Source: Chitinophagaceae bacterium
GTDB taxonomy: Bacteria > Bacteroidota > Bacteroidia > Chitinophagales > Chitinophagaceae
Length of the DNA stretch: 64,000 nucleotides
Assembly (NCBI GenBank): GCA_023957155.1
Contig: JAMLHK010000008.1
Coordinates: forward strand, 124,001 to 188,000
Reading direction: 5' to 3'
The stretch's first letter is position 1; each line of letters begins with the position of its first letter. Shown one piece after another: positions 47,502-53,650 of this stretch. The notes beneath the pieces are model-generated. The model searched no databases and had not been told where the DNA came from. It was given only the letters and a program-made list of their open reading frames with translations. A program made the translations under genes and the position numbers.

Positions 47502-49439
47502 ATGTCAGAAGAAAATAACATTATTAACCAGCCTGCCGGAGAGGCAGGTGCAAACGCTGATACACAGGAGGTTGCCCTTGAACCTGCAGCGACAACAAAA
47601 GAACCTGTGCAGGCGAAGGCCGAAGAACCGGTAACTGCGCATGACGATTTTGACTGGAGCATTGATAAACGGAATGTTTCTTCCTATAGTAAGGAAGAGA
47701 AGGAAAAATATGACTCCGTTTATGAAGGTACATTTAAAGCTATTTCAGACAATGAAATGGTAGAAGGTGTTGTAGTTGGACTGACTAAAACCGATGTGGT
47801 TATTAATATCGGCTTTAAGAGCGATGGATTGATTTCATTAAATGAATTCCGCGATCTGCCCGGATTAAAAGTGGGTGATGTAGTGGAAGTAATGGTGGTA
47901 GAAAAAGAAGACAGGGAAGGACACCTGCACCTGAGCCGTAAACAGGCCCGCATCACACGCGCCTGGGAGCGTATTGTAGAAATACATAAAACAGGAGAAG
48001 TGGTGACCGGCCTGGTTACCAGCAAAACCAAAGGTGGCTTGATCGTAGATGTATTCGGTATGGAAACCTTCCTTCCCGGATCGCAGATTGATGTGAAGCC
48101 CGTTACGGATTACGATCAGTTTGTGGGTAAAACCATGGAGTTTAAAGTGGTTAAGATCAACGAAACCATTAAAAATGCCGTGGTATCTCATAAGGCGCTT
48201 ATTGAAAGTGATATTGAAGCACAACGTGCGGAGATTATCAGCAAGCTGGAAAAAGGACAGGTGCTTGAAGGAACCATTAAGAATATCACTGATTTTGGTG
48301 CATTCCTGGATCTGGGCGGACTGGATGGATTGCTTTACATCACGGATATCAGCTGGGGACGTATCAACCACCCGAGTGAGGTGCTGAAGTTAGACCAGAA
48401 GCTGAATGTGGTGGTGCTTGATTTTGATGATGACAAAAAGCGCATAAGCCTGGGCTTAAAACAACTTACCCCGCATCCGTGGGATACCCTGCCTGAAACG
48501 ATAAGTGAGGGTAAATTAGTTAAAGGTAAAGTAGTAAACATAGAAGATTACGGTGCTTTCCTTGAAATATTACCCGGTGTGGAAGGCCTGGTGCATGTAA
48601 GTGAAATTACCTGGGCCAATACGCCAATTAATGCTAAAGAATTCTTTAAGCTGGGTGACGAGCATGAAGCCAAGATCGTAACCCTTGATAAAGATTCCAG
48701 GAAGATGAGCTTGTCTATTAAACAGCTTACTCCCGATCCCTGGAATGAAATTGAAAACAAATATCCTGCAGAGAGCCGTCATAAGGGATTGGTGAAGAAC
48801 ATCACGCCTTACGGTGTATTTGTGGAGCTGGAGCCGGGTATCGGCGGAATGATCCATATCAGCGATCTAAGCTGGCTGAAACGCTTTAATCATCCGGGAG
48901 AATATACGAAAGTCGGTTCGGAAATAGACGTCATGATCCTGGGTATTGATAAAGAAAACCGCAAGCTTCAGTTAGGACATAAACAACTGGAAGAAGATCC
49001 GTGGAATGCATTGCAGGATACATTTGCCGTAGGTTCGGTTCACGAAGGCGCGGTAATACGCAAGGATGAAAAAGGTGCTCTTGTTCAATTGCCGTACGGG
49101 CTGGAAGGGTTTGCTCCCAACCGTCATCTGCTGAAAGAAGATGGTAAATCAATCGGTGCAGATGAAACCAGCCAGTTTGTTGTGATTGAATTTGACCGGA
49201 ATGAAAAGCGCATCGTACTCAGCCATACCCGTATTTGGGAACAGGCTAAGGCCGATGAAAAAGAAGCCGAGAATAAGGAAAGAAAAGCAGAAGCTGCAAA
49301 GACTAAAAAAGCCGTAAAAGATATACAGAGTAAGGTTGAAAAAACGACACTCGGAGATCTGGGCGTACTTGCAGAATTGAAGAAGAAGATGGAGCAGGGC
49401 GGAAATGACGCCGCTGCGGAAACACCGGCAGCCGAATAA
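47502..49439 (+). CDS. rpsA: 30S ribosomal protein S1
   Basis: A 645-residue S1 protein that binds mRNA and helps recruit it to the 30S subunit. Its acidic N-terminal tail of about 70 residues is followed by six S1 domains starting near VEGVVVGLTKTDVVINIGFKSDGLI. Repeats of G-x-V-x...G-A-F-L/V-x-L follow (GTIKNITDFGAFLDLGGLDG, GKVVNIEDYGAFLEILPGVEG, GLVKNITPYGVFVELEPGIGG). The C-terminal tail is lysine/glutamate-rich. Bacteroidota depend strongly on such S1-type initiation, given weak Shine-Dalgarno use. It has its own promoter and terminator. Confidence 0.95.
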   Translation: MSEENNIINQPAGEAGANADTQEVALEPAATTKEPVQAKAEEPVTAHDDFDWSIDKRNVSSYSKEEKEKYDSVYEGTFKAISDNEMVEGVVVGLTKTDVVINIGFKSDGLISLNEFRDLPGLKVGDVVEVMVVEKEDREGHLHLSRKQARITRAWERIVEIHKTGEVVTGLVTSKTKGGLIVDVFGMETFLPGSQIDVKPVTDYDQFVGKTMEFKVVKINETIKNAVVSHKALIESDIEAQRAEIISKLEKGQVLEGTIKNITDFGAFLDLGGLDGLLYITDISWGRINHPSEVLKLDQKLNVVVLDFDDDKKRISLGLKQLTPHPWDTLPETISEGKLVKGKVVNIEDYGAFLEILPGVEGLVHVSEITWANTPINAKEFFKLGDEHEAKIVTLDKDSRKMSLSIKQLTPDPWNEIENKYPAESRHKGLVKNITPYGVFVELEPGIGGMIHISDLSWLKRFNHPGEYTKVGSEIDVMILGIDKENRKLQLGHKQLEEDPWNALQDTFAVGSVHEGAVIRKDEKGALVQLPYGLEGFAPNRHLLKEDGKSIGADETSQFVVIEFDRNEKRIVLSHTRIWEQAKADEKEAENKERKAEAAKTKKAVKDIQSKVEKTTLGDLGVLAELKKKMEQGGNDAAAETPAAE

Positions 49440-49471
49440 CGGAACAGGCTCTTAATCATTCTATAAGGTGA

Positions 49472-49506
49472 AAATCCGTCATGTTTAACAGCATGACGGA
49501 TTTTTT
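49472..49506 (+). terminator. Intrinsic terminator of rpsA
   Basis: A perfect 12-bp stem AAATCCGTCATG/CATGACGGATTT with an 8-nt loop and a T-tract, starting 33 bp after the stop. Confidence 0.9.
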
Positions 49507-49554
49507 ATTTCAGGCTTTTGATCTGTCCCCGGATAGAAAAATCCGGTAAAAATA

Positions 49555-49585
49555 TTTGTTTAGTTAGGAATCCTAATTATATTTG
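49555..49585 (+). promoter_or_regulatory. Promoter with MarR-like operator 1 (TTAGGA-A-TCCTAA)
   Basis: A textbook promoter: TTTG (49555-49558), 19 bp, TATATTTG (49578-49585). A perfect palindrome TTAGGAATCCTAA (49564-49576) fills the spacer. Related palindromes lie at 49880 and 50696. It controls the CPVC mini-thioredoxin gene at 49627. Confidence 0.8.
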
Positions 49586-49626
49586 TACCGGCAATATTGC
49601 CACGGACTATTTAATTATGAAATACA

Positions 49627-49860
49627 ATGAGTAAATCTATTTTTTATCACGCGGGATGTCCTGTTTGTGTAAGTGCAGAACACGATATCATTAACCTTAT
49701 TGGCAAAGACAATGTAGATGTGGTGCATATTGGCGATGACCGGAGCCGCATTGAGGAGGCTGAAAAGGCAGGTGTAAAATCAGTTCCTGCTTTGGTAACT
49801 CCTAATGGTAATGTGCTTCACATCAACTTTGGGGCTTCTATGGATGAGGTGAAGGGATAA
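49627..49860 (+). CDS. Small thioredoxin-fold protein with CPVC active site
   Basis: A 77-residue cytoplasmic protein. The start MSKSIFYHAGCPVCVSAEHDI places a CxxC (C11, C14) after the first strand, and the cis-proline loop is KSVPALVTPNG. It is shorter than thioredoxin and resembles glutaredoxin-like miniature thioredoxins. No signal peptide. Its promoter is overlapped by operator 1, tying it to the MarR regulator at 51060. A role as thiol reductant or sulfur/metal carrier is inferred. The next gene in the regulon starts 74 bp downstream with its own operator. Confidence 0.8.
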   Translation: MSKSIFYHAGCPVCVSAEHDIINLIGKDNVDVVHIGDDRSRIEEAEKAGVKSVPALVTPNGNVLHINFGASMDEVKG

Positions 49861-49865
49861 AAATT

Positions 49866-49897
49866 TTTATCCTATATAGTTAGGACTCCTAATTTTG
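49866..49897 (+). promoter_or_regulatory. Promoter with MarR-like operator 2 (TTAGGA-C-TCCTAA)
   Basis: A palindrome TTAGGACTCCTAA (49880-49892) overlaps a -7 box TAATTTTG (49890-49897). A weak TTTA sits 20 bp upstream. This precedes the secreted unknown gene at 49935. Confidence 0.75.
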
Positions 49898-49934
49898 TAT
49901 GATCCCGGTCATTTAAACTTTTAAAAATAATAGA

Positions 49935-50675
49935 ATGAAAAAGATAAGTATTGCTGTACTGGGTTTACTGGTAGCGTTACAGGTGTTTCCCTGTGATAAA
50001 TGCAGGAACTACGATAATAATGATTTTCAGATTACCGGCGTAAGTGTAAAGCATCATCCGGACTTCAAAGCAACCGTATGGGAAATAAAGGTTAAAGGGA
50101 GTGCGGGGAAAACAACGCCCACGCCCGTAGGCCAGCTTAACGGGGCTCCTGTTTTGGGTTATGTTTTTCCTACCACGTTGCGATCCACAGATGTAGGGTT
50201 TAGCGATACCGAAGGGATCGTGGCGCTGGCCCTTACTTCTCATCCCGACTTTGACGATACCCCTCTTTGGGATGAGAACGTGGATGGTAAATATGATAAC
50301 GATGGTATTATCTGGCATCCCCATTGGGTGGTGCTTACAGAAGATAAGCGCGTAAGCGGTGGCCTGGCGGTTAAGCAGTTCAATCCCGGTGATGCGGGTG
50401 TGAAGCTGCCGCCGACCAATCCCGGAATGCCTATGTATATGGATTCTCCCGGGTACCAGGTAGTTACCAAAGGAAATCTTATCCGGGTTATTGTTCCCGA
50501 TTACCGGATTAGCAACAAAACCGATTTTTCGTTTGATGGTGTTGCGGCTTATATGCAGGTAAATACGGGTGAGGGTAATGGTCACGGCAGTTTGGATAAG
50601 CCGATGCTGGGCGTTTATAAAGTGTATTCGGTTGCCAGCGGTAACTTATCGCTGCCGTACCGGGTACAACGATAG
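49935..50675 (+). CDS. Secreted protein of unknown function in the MarR regulon
   Basis: A 246-residue exported protein (signal segment MKKISIAVLGLLVALQVFPC) whose mature N-terminus carries C20-DK-C23. I do not recognise the family. The body is beta-rich, with many Asp, His and Pro residues: GVSVKHHPDFKATVWEIKVKG, ALTSHPDFDDTPLWDENVDGKYDND and IIWHPHWVVLTED. These could form metal or calcium sites. Residues 120-190 include a proline-rich TNPGMPMYMDSPGYQ. It is transcribed from operator 2 and is therefore likely co-regulated with the mini-thioredoxin and DUF2024 genes. The CxxC and histidines suggest metal handling or redox, which is conjecture. Confidence 0.75.
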   Translation: MKKISIAVLGLLVALQVFPCDKCRNYDNNDFQITGVSVKHHPDFKATVWEIKVKGSAGKTTPTPVGQLNGAPVLGYVFPTTLRSTDVGFSDTEGIVALALTSHPDFDDTPLWDENVDGKYDNDGIIWHPHWVVLTEDKRVSGGLAVKQFNPGDAGVKLPPTNPGMPMYMDSPGYQVVTKGNLIRVIVPDYRISNKTDFSFDGVAAYMQVNTGEGNGHGSLDKPMLGVYKVYSVASGNLSLPYRVQR

Positions 50676-50681
50676 TTGAAA

Positions 50682-50713
50682 TTTGTCCTGTATAGTTAGG
50701 AATCCTATCTTTA
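50682..50713 (+). promoter_or_regulatory. Promoter with MarR-like operator 3 (one mismatch)
   Basis: TTTG (50682-50685), 20 bp, TATCTTTA (50706-50713, one mismatch to TAnnTTTG), overlapped by TTAGGAATCCTAT (50696-50708), one base from the perfect palindrome. It shares the flank TATAGTTAGGA with operator 2 and drives the DUF2024-marR operon. Confidence 0.75.
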
Positions 50714-50796
50714 CAGGACATTTCTCTGCTATAACAGGTATAGTAACAACAAACAATTACCCAGGCAGGAGGCTCCTGCCGATAAATGCAAGAAAA

Positions 50797-51060
50797 ATGA
50801 AAGTAGCAGTTTGGGATACTTATGTAACGAAAAAAGACGGGAGCGTGATGCATTTTGATATCATAGTACCATCGCACATAACGGATGCCGCTATGATTTA
50901 CCGTTATGGAAAAGAATACCTGGAAACCAAAGGACAGGAAAGCCAGCCGCTGGCTTCCGAAGAGTGCAGGTTTTGTCATATCGAAACGGTAAAGCCGCAG
51001 CAGGAAGCTGAAATAGATAAAAGAGGATATTATATTTACGAAATGGAAAACTGTAATTAA
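50797..51060 (+). CDS. DUF2024 family protein
   Basis: An 87-residue cytoplasmic protein matching the DUF2024 pattern: MKVAVWDTYVTKKDGSVMHFDIIVPSHI, YGKEYLETKGQ, and a cysteine/histidine motif ECRFCHIE. No function is established for the family; the CxxCH motif could bind a metal. The frame opens at 50683 but ATG 50797 gives the conserved family start. Its stop overlaps the marR ATG (TAATG), so the two are translationally coupled. That coupling links it tightly to the regulator. Confidence 0.87.
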   Translation: MKVAVWDTYVTKKDGSVMHFDIIVPSHITDAAMIYRYGKEYLETKGQESQPLASEECRFCHIETVKPQQEAEIDKRGYYIYEMENCN

Positions 51061-51671
51061 TGGAGCAATCGGATTTTGACCTGCAGCACCAAAACCGGAG
51101 TGTGGAAAGCAGGATTGTAGCTGCATTGGAAAAAATATCGCAGGCTTTCCGTGTTTTGCTGTGGCAGGAGAGCAGGGAATTTTCATTAACCCCGACACAG
51201 GTGCAGGTATTGATTTTTCTGTTGCATCACAGTGAGGAGAAAAGGAAAGTGAGTTATCTGGCAGATGAGTTCAACATGACGAAGGCTACCATCAGTGACA
51301 CGGTGAAAGCACTTACCCAAAAAGGCCTGATTGCTAAAGCCTATGAGCCGGAAGATACCCGCAGTTATATTATCTACCTCACGGAAAAGGGGCGGGAAAT
51401 AGCATCAGAAACTTCCTTTTTCACACGGGAAATTCATGCTCCTATTGACCAATTACACGCTGATGATAAGGAGAACCTGCTGTTGAGCCTGCTCAATATT
51501 ATCCGGCATTTAAACAAGGCCGGCATCATTACCATCCAGCGAATGTGTATGACCTGCGCCCATTACCAGGTATCTGACAGGGGACAGAAACATTTTTGTA
51601 CACTACTGAACCAGAAGCTGGAGGTTACGGATATCCGGATTGATTGTCCTGAATACGAAATGAAAGCATAG
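51060..51671 (+). CDS. MarR-family regulator with C-terminal four-cysteine tail
   Basis: A 203-residue winged-helix regulator. Helix-turn-helix: KVSYLADEFNMTKATISDTVKALTQKG, wing: EPEDTRSYIIYLTEKG. Beyond the usual MarR length, residues 161-203 form an extension with C163-x2-C166, C180 and C196 (CMTCAHY ... HFCTLL ... DCPEYE), likely a metal or Fe-S ligand set. Its operator is probably TTAGGAnTCCTAA, found three times upstream, including before its own operon. TTAG/CTAA half-sites are typical of SlyA/MarR-type proteins. It probably represses and senses thiol/metal/redox signals; the signal is unknown. Confidence 0.85.
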   Translation: MEQSDFDLQHQNRSVESRIVAALEKISQAFRVLLWQESREFSLTPTQVQVLIFLLHHSEEKRKVSYLADEFNMTKATISDTVKALTQKGLIAKAYEPEDTRSYIIYLTEKGREIASETSFFTREIHAPIDQLHADDKENLLLSLLNIIRHLNKAGIITIQRMCMTCAHYQVSDRGQKHFCTLLNQKLEVTDIRIDCPEYEMKA

Positions 51672-51682
51672 GACCCGGAATT

Positions 51683-53650
51683 TTATTTTGTCCAGCTATT
51701 ATTCGAGTCGTCAATATCTGGGAACAGGTGATCCGGGTCAATGACTACCTTACTTAAGGCTTCGCCGGAGTTTACGCTAAAGGTCCATACGTTGTTGTTC
51801 TGCCAGATTTCAACCGGTAGTGTTTTCCGCCCGGTTTTTCCACTTACTGTAGTATATTCCACAATAACAGGCATGGCCATTTGTGCCGCATTTTCTATAC
51901 TTATCAAAGCACCCTGTTTAGGATCGCCGTTCACATATTCAACATTTGTCAATACCTGGTCTAACGCGTAATTATTCAGGATCATACCTTTCCAGAACCA
52001 GGCAAGGTCTTCCCCGGCGCTGTTCTCCATACTGCGGAAGAAATCCCAGGGGGTGGGATGCCTGTATGCCCAGTCGCGGATATAATTTTTAAGTGCATAG
52101 TCAAACCGGTCCTGTCCTAAGATCTGGTTGCGCAGCAGCTCCATCGCATAGCCCGGTTTATAATACAGCAGGTTACCGATATTTCTTTCTTTCATCGCAT
52201 CGGGCGTGTTATAGATACTTTCAGCTTGTGGTCCGAACATATAACCGATCTGGTGCGGATCTCTTCGCCTGGATTTATATTCGCCGTTGTTGAATTCGGA
52301 AGTGGAGATGCCGTTGATAAAAGTATTGAAGCCTTCATCCATCCATCCGTATCTTCTCTCGTTGCTGCCTACGATCATCGGAAACCAGGTGTGTCCGAAT
52401 TCATGGTCGGTTACTCCCCACAGGCTTGCGCCGGCGGCTCTTGCCCCGCAAAAAACGATGCCGGGATATTCCATGCCGCCCACGTTACTGGCTACATTTA
52501 CCGCGGAGTAATAGGAGTAGGGAAACCAGCGCTTTGAATAGTTTTCTATAGAGGCCTTGGTATATTCTGTAGACCTGCCCCAGGCATTCCTGCCATCTGA
52601 TTCGACAGGATATACCGACATGGCCAATCCTTTTTTTCCGTCAGGCAGGTTCATTTTTGCAGCGTCCCAGATAAATGAGCGGGAAGCTGCCCATGCAAAA
52701 TCGCGTGCATTGCTGATCTTAAAATTCCAGGTAAGCGCTCCTTTTTGCGGTTGCGCTTTCGTGTTAGTAACATCGTCTTTGCCGCGAATGACTACTGTCT
52801 TGTCGCTTTCTTTTGCCCGGTTATAGCGCTCTAATTGTTGTGCGGTCAGTACTTCTTTCGGATTCTGCAATTCACCGGAGCCAACTACGATCATGCCGGA
52901 TGGCGCGGTAATATTTACGTCAAAGTCGCCATACTCCAGGTAAAATTCACCGGCGCCGAGATAAGGGTCCGTATTCCATCCCCGTATATCATCAAATACA
53001 CACATACGCGGATACCATTGGGCGATAGAAAAAATATCTCCGTTGCGGGTATTCAAGATCCCCGTTCTGTCGGCGCCATATTGAGGTACGGAGAAAGCAT
53101 ATACAAATTTTAATTTCAGCTCCCCGCCCTTAGCGGCTATTGCGTTGCTTAAGCGTATCTGCATCCGGGTATCCGTTATGATATAATCGGCATTTGATTC
53201 TGTTTGCCCGCTGATGACGGAAACGGATTGAAACCTGAATCCGCCCTTAAAGTCACTGTTGGCATCGCCGTAGCGGCTATGACCTGTTGCCGGCATTTTT
53301 GCATGTCCCCTGGATGAATCGTTAAACAGTTGCTGGTCTAACTGCAACCAGATATAGGGGAGAGGTTGCGGGCTATTGTTTTTATAATGGAGGATAACAG
53401 TTGCGGTTACCTCTTTTTGGGCATCGTTTAAGCTGGCATTGATCTGGTAATCTGCCTTGTTTTGCCAGTACCCAGGACCAGGCGCTCCGTTTGCCCCGCG
53501 ATATTCGTTACCATTATGGGTATAAAAAAGAGGGGAAAAAAGAGCCGTATAGTCATACGCTGTGCCCGTTTTCTGTGATACCTGGGCAATTAATCCGGTA
53601 ACCGTTAATATAATGGCTAATGTAAATACCGTTTTCTTCATTATGTTCAT
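51683..53650 (-). CDS. Exported M1-family aminopeptidase-like metallopeptidase
   Basis: A 655-residue secreted gluzincin with signal peptide ([20 protein letters not shown]). The zinc site [21 protein letters not shown] is followed by the third ligand in MDEGFNTF, giving HExxH-x18-E. The N-terminal beta domain includes an ALTW-like [16 protein letters not shown]. The exopeptidase GxMEN motif appears as NVGGMEYPG, with N replaced by Y, so activity could differ from standard aminopeptidases. It is convergent with the MarR operon. ATG 53650 or 53641 are both plausible starts. Confidence 0.88.

Follow-up and report, generated by a model that had tools for sequence, protein, structure and literature searches.

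The gene module described here lies between positions 49555 and 51671 of a 64,000-nucleotide stretch of DNA from a Chitinophagaceae bacterium (positions 124,001 to 188,000 of contig JAMLHK010000008.1), hereafter the window, and consists of four genes on the + strand that probably constitute an autoregulated regulon of a MarR-family protein. The first, TRX (49627..49860), is an open reading frame (ORF) encoding a 77-amino-acid (aa) thioredoxin/glutaredoxin-like protein with a CPVC motif, which scores under the Pfam thioredoxin cut-offs and matches PDB 2k8s (E 1.8e-31). It is followed by SEC (49935..50675), whose 246-aa conserved product has a signal-like N-terminus and then a CDKC motif, by DUF2024 (50797..51060), encoding an 87-aa protein (PF09630, 1.1e-35; PDB 2hfq, E 2.1e-19), and by marR (51060..51671), encoding a 203-aa regulator assigned from Pfam, NCBIfam and a structural model, whose ATG at 51060 lies in a TAATG overlap with the DUF2024 stop codon (51058-51060). 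The gene order, the CPVC and CDKC motifs and this overlap were as described in an earlier sequence-only reading of the locus, in which four features treated below were absent: a four-cysteine extension of the MarR protein, a 35-nucleotide (nt) palindrome, overlaps of operator and -7 box at the second and third promoters, and a palindrome at 49590-49601. No assigned function was found for DUF2024, SEC or the four-cysteine MarR, and a scan of 49400-51750 against Rfam rendered nothing above the gathering score.

That reading had also proposed three palindromes of the form TTAGGAnTCCTAA, and a motif scan located all of them, two exact (49564-49576 and 49880-49892) and one with a single mismatch (50696-50708), ahead of TRX, SEC and DUF2024-marR, respectively. 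Bacteroidota promoters follow the consensus TTTG, a spacer of ca. 19-20 nt, and TAnnTTTG, and boxes of this kind can be read at the three sites, all on the + strand. At the TRX promoter, a -33-like TTTG (49555..49558) and the -7 box TATATTTG (49578..49585), the latter common to the TRX-class sites of relatives, are separated by a 19-nt spacer within which operator 1, TTAGGAATCCTAA (49564..49576), is contained, as had been claimed. Operator 2, TTAGGACTCCTAA (49880..49892), is overlapped by the -7 box TAATTTTG (49890..49897), and a clear -33 box was not found on reading at this site. The DUF2024-marR promoter shows a -33-like TTTG (50682..50685), a spacer of 20 and the -7 box TATCTTTA (50706..50713), whose last base differs from the consensus; both boxes are also seen in an alignment of DUF2024-class sites (A6, see below), and the -7 box begins within operator 3, TTAGGAATCCTAT (50696..50708, one mismatch), just as that of site 2 begins within operator 2. 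The TAnnTTTG promoter motif is used in PMC6847099 and PMC9723704.

The significance of such palindromes depends on where they stand. Within the window, sites with up to two mismatches number three, near chance (shuffle mean 3.61), and the assembly to which the window belongs (4.6 Mb, 88% complete) contains two exact copies, both at this locus, and three with a single mismatch, of which one is at this locus; these 5 sites compare with 6 of the reversed pattern. The two other single-mismatch sites (L003 and L004) are not ahead of module genes; the one at L003 1501-1513 (G000:C2:154239) has a frame similar to RelE-type toxins in its vicinity and is probably due to chance. Two results weigh against assigning the palindrome to this regulator: in 48 whole genomes that carry the MarR, exact sites amount to 29 versus 27 of the reversed pattern, for which reason enrichment in number was rejected as evidence, and 18 of 76 loci lack a site with at most one mismatch, 17 of these having a two-mismatch site, a level at which the control itself reaches 32 of the 76. 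The equality of exact sites and control per genome counts in favour of an alternative in which the palindromes are bound by a different regulator and the MarR is a mere neighbour. Because the exact-site count matches the reversed control, only placement is informative, and 28 of the 29 exact sites, as matched across the locus listings, sit ahead of a module gene. The remaining exact site, in genome G141 (L194), is off-module, about 20 base pairs (bp) past an ORF with the look of a tRNA synthetase gene. Among the 28 is that of a second SEC copy, located elsewhere in genome G111 (L117, G111:C31:218887), which has its own exact operator and a decayed TRX-like frame beside it.

A scan of contigs for relatives of the MarR rendered 77 loci, mostly from Bacteroidota but also from Ignavibacterium, Melioribacter and Acidobacteria bins; one of them (L082, a 34-residue match) was excluded from every locus count. 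In the 76 loci considered (L006-L081), 35 exact sites are present in 35 loci, with none of the reversed control; allowing one mismatch, 101 sites are spread over 58 loci (control, 2 sites at 2 loci), and allowing two, a site is present in 75 loci (control, 32). The palindromes are thus conserved upstream of orthologous genes well beyond the Chitinophagaceae, where their absence had been named in the sequence-only reading as the observation that would speak against it. The operators can be grouped by the gene that follows them into a class of TRX and protoglobin genes, a class of SEC, and a class of DUF2024, marR or truncated globin genes. In two SEC promoters a second site with at most one mismatch is found 19 bp further, and other SEC promoters bear an imperfect second site; in some relatives the two operators, ca. 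19 bp apart, jointly make one long RNA hairpin (L055 4430-4490, z -8.35; L076 1270-1330, z -4.27).

The presence of the MarR and that of TRX are also associated among genomes. Among 296 genomes of Bacteroidota, one of which is that of the window, MarR was detected in 22, TRX in 13 and both in 10 (p = 1.3e-10), and none of the three TRX-positive, MarR-negative genomes shows a site with up to two mismatches within 3-4 kb around TRX. By reading, TRX lies within a cupin/dihydrodipicolinate-synthase-like operon in two of these (L167 and L196), in one of which a GntR-type N-terminus with a MocR-like look stands beside it, so that TRX may answer to another regulator there; in the third genome TRX stands ahead of DUF2024 and divergent from YggS.

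Regulator and site are kept together in distant homologues too. A search of plasmids rendered 82 records with a MarR match. From the MarR, SEC and TRX searches, 15 varied regions were picked and opened; two of these were set aside (Cytobacillus, with a TRX match and no MarR nearby, and Thermus parvatiensis, with a shortened MarR). Homologues from Deinococcota, a cyanobacterium and Alphaproteobacteria show only 26-33% identity and retain the cysteines and the operator with 0-2 mismatches. In 10 of the 13 plasmid loci with a complete four-cysteine MarR, a TTAGGAnTCCTAA-type site is found upstream of the MarR gene or its probable operon: exact in Spirosoma, Thermus AA3-7 and Nostoc (twice in the latter), with one mismatch in Thermus HB27, Deinococcus, Defluviimonas and Sphingopyxis, and with two in Hymenobacter, Sinorhizobium fredii and Shinella, the last two of which retain TAGGAnTCCTA. 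The pattern, at up to two mismatches, occurs elsewhere in the 15 regions at L180:8967, L187:4469 and L188:9563, and the reversed control gives four matches, none upstream of a module gene. Paraburkholderia has neither this type of site nor the one that, in Phaeobacter and Enterobacter, replaces it between divergent genes, a perfect GTAKCGAnTCGMTAC palindrome. The same two proteins differ in the recognition helix (residues 76 and 80 in the window protein), which is the helix that reads DNA in MarR structures: it has the form (A/P)(T/S)x(S/T)(D/E) in 13 rows of alignment A10 and GTxSQ in the rows of Phaeobacter and Enterobacter. This parallel change of operator and helix is the best sequence evidence that the palindrome would be the binding site of the MarR, with the reservation that it consists of two cases whose ancestry may be shared. 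Given the site counts, the conservation across phyla, the joint change of helix and palindrome and the loss of the site where the regulator is missing, the pairing of MarR and operator is very likely, and binding by some other protein, which would leave unexplained why site and MarR move together across phyla, why the site is gone in the three genomes with TRX alone, and why it changes where the helix changes, appears very improbable. In Enterobacter, the divergent MarR and TRX genes flank TTATAGTATCGAATCGATACTATAA on an IncHI2A plasmid (L185 4860-5060), with a Rho-binding antiterminator gene downstream, and this TRX recurs in 56 Enterobacter plasmid records.

Operator 3 differs in its surroundings, since it forms the core of the 35-nt palindrome (50685..50719, + strand), which overlaps the DUF2024-marR promoter and, as a hairpin in the sense RNA, would hold both the operator and the -7 box. 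Alignment A6 comprises 25 DUF2024-class sites, gapless and picked by operator match, from which L028:5178 (whose flanks form no hairpin) and L052 (a near-copy of L051) were dropped; because of that choice, the invariance of the half-sites in it is partly an artefact of selection. Of the 17 pairs of the palindrome, the seven outermost hold in every one of the 24 distinct rows, and each of them shows changes on both sides. In total, 31 cells are changed on both sides, versus a mean of 8.2 in shuffled alignments and at most 6 in slid structures. In the outer seven pairs of the 25 rows there are 160 Watson-Crick cells, 15 G-U and no A-C, and G-U pairs hold only in the RNA of the coding strand. Because G-U is found without A-C, selection seems to act on the sense transcript, beyond the symmetry of the DNA, in rows that are related and not independent.

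In the window, this hairpin begins 9 nt past the SEC stop codon and has a predicted energy of -20.4 kcal/mol (z -5.77). The tail that follows it is moderately rich in T (mean 6.1 T/10 in 25 loci; 5/10 in the window), and the hairpin probably ends the upstream transcript, a role to which we come by inference, since a strict terminator scan of the window did not list 50685-50719. Among L006-L081, 48 loci have 25-400 nt separating DUF2024 from the TRX or SEC gene that precedes it (L070 and L078, where this gap is > 400 nt, were left out), and in each of them the gap was folded over its first 100 nt, with a threshold of z <= -3 against mononucleotide shuffles. A hairpin was detected in 43 of the 48, namely in 17 of 19 loci where the gap has an operator of at most one mismatch and in 26 of the 29 where the operator is poorer, and in three Acidobacteria loci the hairpin stands and the operator is gone from it. 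It could be the case, therefore, that the palindrome is a terminator alone and that a promoter and operator at site 3 have been read into it, as the similar frequency of hairpins with good and with poor operators would suggest; many loci, nevertheless, combine a one-mismatch site with a conserved TAnCTTTG-like box, and we consider that explanation distinctly unlikely. The likeliest history, judging from these loci, is that of a terminator hairpin that came to host an operator and a promoter in some lineages.

A smaller palindrome, GGCAATATTGCC (49590..49601, + strand), lies where the TRX transcript is predicted to begin and might form an RNA stem at the 5' end of this transcript. In many TRX promoters a 12-bp element of this kind is found at a fixed distance past the -7 box, with variants such as GAC..GTC and AGC..GCT that stay symmetric (7 cells changed on both sides in 35 picked rows). 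The alignment in question (A7) is a picked set, since TRX/protoglobin-class sites without the GGCAAT palindrome were left out of it, together with two near-copies, and the palindrome is missing from at least 12 of 50 such sites. Alone it folds weakly (z -0.93); a 5'-end stem of the mRNA and a second operator are both possible roles.

The regulator itself contains a MarR winged-helix domain that scores above the cut-offs of PF12802 (44.6 bits, cut-off 27) and PF01047 (35.9, cut-off 24.6). Its structural model has a mean predicted local distance difference test score (pLDDT) of 78.8, lower over the extension, and its fold is matched by 243 PDB chains at E <= 0.001, with MepR and ST1710 as the best structural matches and target-normalised TM values up to 0.82 among the matches listed. 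The equivalog of AdcR-type zinc-dependent MarR proteins (NF038251) gave 43.1 bits, with a cut-off of 175. Solved MarR relatives align only across profile positions 5-153, among the 60 of 91 matches listed, and the remaining ca. 50 residues, at the C-terminus (51540..51668, + strand; identified from alignments and profile searches), hold C163, C166, C180 and C196, which are invariant in 29/29 rows of alignment A1, 30/30 of A5 and 15/15 of A10. Among 98 related genomes, a profile of the extension detected such MarR proteins in 19 and gave two further weak matches, and a search of the extension alone against PDB gave no chain below E 0.87. This MarR apparently belongs to an uncharacterised subfamily that combines a winged helix with a C-terminal four-cysteine domain, and in openly licensed literature no account of this regulator was found by title and start of abstract among the matches listed. 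The cysteines might hold an iron-sulfur centre, zinc or no metal; a metal or iron-sulfur centre is the probable reading, and zinc with a structural role would count against the model favoured below.

The signal to which the module might respond has been approached through the genes that accompany it. In contiguous same-strand runs at 89 loci, where family names were given by reading and one member of most families was confirmed by Pfam, the most frequent members are TRX (62), DUF2024 (51), YggS (25) and SEC (18), followed by truncated globin (9), protoglobin (6) and genes for hemerythrin and the RIC-type iron-sulfur repair protein (4), the last two directly upstream in four Bacteroidota loci. 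Identity to the window proteins is mostly 71-90% for TRX and mostly 60-78% for DUF2024, with a few lower. Within at most 6 kb per side in 91 sources, the window being counted twice, the truncated-globin family was found in 13 and the protoglobin family in 9, one member of each being confirmed by Pfam. On the plasmids, the neighbours in Hymenobacter are the flavohaemoglobin gene hmpA, an Rrf2 regulator, a catalase, SEC, a hexameric tyrosine-coordinated haem protein (HTHP), a protoglobin, DUF2024, MarR and MOSC; those in Thermus AA3-7 are P460, MarR, a cytochrome c, a radical SAM protein, a nitrite reductase, Rrf2 and DUF542, and there a cbb3-type oxidase-like gene together with a cytochrome c probably represents NorBC. 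Thermus HB27 keeps the P460-MarR pair, the respiratory genes of AA3-7 being absent from the fetched stretch. Phaeobacter bears nirK ca. 5.5 kb from the divergent MarR and SEC genes, as well as MOSC; Defluviimonas, NnrS and a nitronate monooxygenase; and Nostoc, MOSC, TRX, a thiol peroxidase, MarR, an AurF-type diiron oxygenase, a glutamine amidotransferase (GATase) and a globin. The recurrence of globins, P460, hmpA, nitrite reductase, RIC, NnrS, YggS and MOSC near the MarR is the reason why a reactive nitrogen signal is favoured, and it suggests reactive nitrogen species, with nitric oxide (NO) and hydroxylamine as candidates. The sequence-only reading had named thiols, metals or a redox agent as what the module senses, which in the light of these neighbours is probably wrong.

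Several observations speak against reactive nitrogen as the signal. The fetched stretches of Paraburkholderia, S. fredii, Spirosoma and Sphingopyxis have no annotated nitrogen-oxide gene, and at most loci, the window included, a globin is not part of the module. Among the Bacteroidota genomes, NirK is not enriched with the MarR (4/22 MarR-positive genomes versus 44/274 others, p 0.77) and neither is qNor (3/22 versus 24/274, p 0.44). NosZ is present in 16/22 MarR-positive genomes versus 83/274 others (p = 0.0002, kinship ignored) and, among 98 relatives, in 13/19 versus 30/79 (p 0.02), and this link disappears outside the window's genus (4/9 versus 28/77, p 0.72), for which reason NosZ is given little weight. 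Denitrification as a shared lifestyle was rejected on these grounds. The genome of the window has NosZ and nirK (same contig, C25:50890-51858, beyond the window), which fits a nitrogen signal and proves nothing.

It can also be the case that the same autoregulated MarR responds to thiol/disulfide or peroxide stress, its cysteines being a redox switch. Such a signal keeps some credit because thioredoxin-like and peroxidase or redoxin genes also recur: besides the CPVC protein TRX, the commonest member of the runs, a thiol peroxidase gene is divergent from the Nostoc MarR gene and another is 3.6 kb off that of Enterobacter, redoxin or TlpA genes adjoin the homologues of Sphingopyxis, Shinella and Defluviimonas, and a GGACT-like gene appears in 4 of the 89 runs. 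The repeated presence of globins, P460, hmpA, RIC, nitrite reductase and NnrS would then be left without explanation, and we regard a thiol signal as rather unlikely.

Within the reactive nitrogen model, hydroxylamine (or HNO) instead of NO might be the signal, produced by the cell itself or by its neighbours, with the module shielding pyridoxal phosphate (PLP) and haem. The PLP-binding family YggS, present in more than a quarter of the runs, would fit this, as would MOSC genes in 6 of the 15 plasmid stretches (Hymenobacter, Phaeobacter, Deinococcus, Cytobacillus, Nostoc and Shinella), the AurF-type oxygenase and GATase of Nostoc, which belong to the families of DnfA and DnfC, and a GATase-family gene in two Bacteroidota loci (L007, confirmed by Pfam, and L016). 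According to passages of PMC9478400, P460 oxidises hydroxylamine in ammonia oxidisers and the AurF-like DnfA oxidises it as well, and part of PMC9355588 documents hydroxylamine as an antagonist between bacteria. NO, however, is the better fit for protoglobin, RIC, hmpA, NnrS and NorB-like genes; the P460-family protein of Thermus might instead be a cytochrome c'-beta, which lacks the lysine link (PMC11928373); and DnfR, known to regulate the hydroxylamine cluster, is MocR-like, not MarR, going by a title cited in PMC9478400. Hydroxylamine as the actual signal is therefore doubtful.

A reactive nitrogen species, in the first place NO and next hydroxylamine or another nitrogen oxide, remains the signal in the model that we favour. 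In it, the MarR would repress, rather than activate, its own operon and at least one neighbouring promoter through the 13-bp TTAGGAnTCCTAA palindrome, placed between the -33 and -7 boxes or overlapping them. The nitrogen species would act at the four cysteines, where a metal or iron-sulfur centre is probably bound, and would thereby relieve repression, so that TRX, SEC and DUF2024 would be made here, and globins, cytochrome P460, YggS or MOSC proteins elsewhere; and the operator and core promoter of DUF2024-marR would sit inside the RNA hairpin at which the upstream transcript probably ends. We assign this whole model, with its four-cysteine MarR, its operator, its reactive nitrogen signal and its nested hairpin, a probability of ca. 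0.6. The compact MarR regulon with a TTAGGAnTCCTAA operator put forward in the sequence-only reading is well supported by sequence, with autoregulation as a probable trait.

As for SEC, the protein is probably secreted, its signal-like N-terminus having been judged by eye. It has no Pfam match at E up to 1, no match to a PDB sequence, and in NCBIfam a single match far under the cut-off and none above. Its alignment with 19 relatives shows 61-79% identity to them and two invariant motifs, HPDFDD and WHPHW. Its AlphaFold model (mean pLDDT 71.4) finds no PDB structure at E <= 0.001 (best E 0.022, probability 0.08), and a haem-binding role, considered because the second match was ethylbenzene dehydrogenase (E 0.099), was dropped.

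A wider reading is that these proteins form a pan-bacterial family of MarR sensors of hydroxylamine or NO, with the C-terminal four-cysteine domain possibly of iron-sulfur type, which governs a portable defence regulon through TAGGAnTCCTA, spans at least Bacteroidota, Acidobacteriota, Deinococcota, Cyanobacteria and Alphaproteobacteria, and whose Bacteroidota operator evolved within a terminator hairpin; taken as one joint claim it is tentative, and the odds are somewhat against it. If it holds, a single element of 35 bp is at once the end of one transcript, the start of another and a binding site for the repressor, a compact nesting of terminator, promoter and operator for whose RNA part the covariation is direct evidence. 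One regulator-operator code, readable from sequence, would then give a stress role to several families of unknown function in several phyla, and the P460-marR promoter of Thermus thermophilus HB27 would be a ready assay. The sensor-like extension of the MarR, the operator code across phyla and the nested element are what is new here.

With regard to known systems, solved relatives exist for TRX (PDB 2k8s, a thioredoxin) and DUF2024 (PDB 2hfq), both presumably from Nitrosomonas europaea. The regulator shares with repressors of the MarR/SlyA/MepR type (PF12802, PF01047; MepR, ST1710, PefR) the winged-helix fold, palindromic operators at promoters and a probable autoregulation, and differs from them in its C-terminal extension of ca. 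50 aa with four invariant cysteines. NsrR is an iron-sulfur, NO-sensing repressor of the Rrf2 family, and its cysteine-ligated centre, NO-type signal and compact detoxification regulon resemble what we propose for the window MarR, which nevertheless lies outside the Rrf2 family (PF02082, 17.6 bits, cut-off 30); Rrf2 genes are found near the MarR homologues of Hymenobacter, Thermus, Deinococcus and Shinella. DnfR, from the hydroxylamine cluster of Alcaligenes, governs genes of an AurF-type oxygenase and a GATase, the same families that are found near the Nostoc homologue, and is, by a title cited in PMC9478400, a MocR-like protein, whereas the regulator of the window is a MarR.

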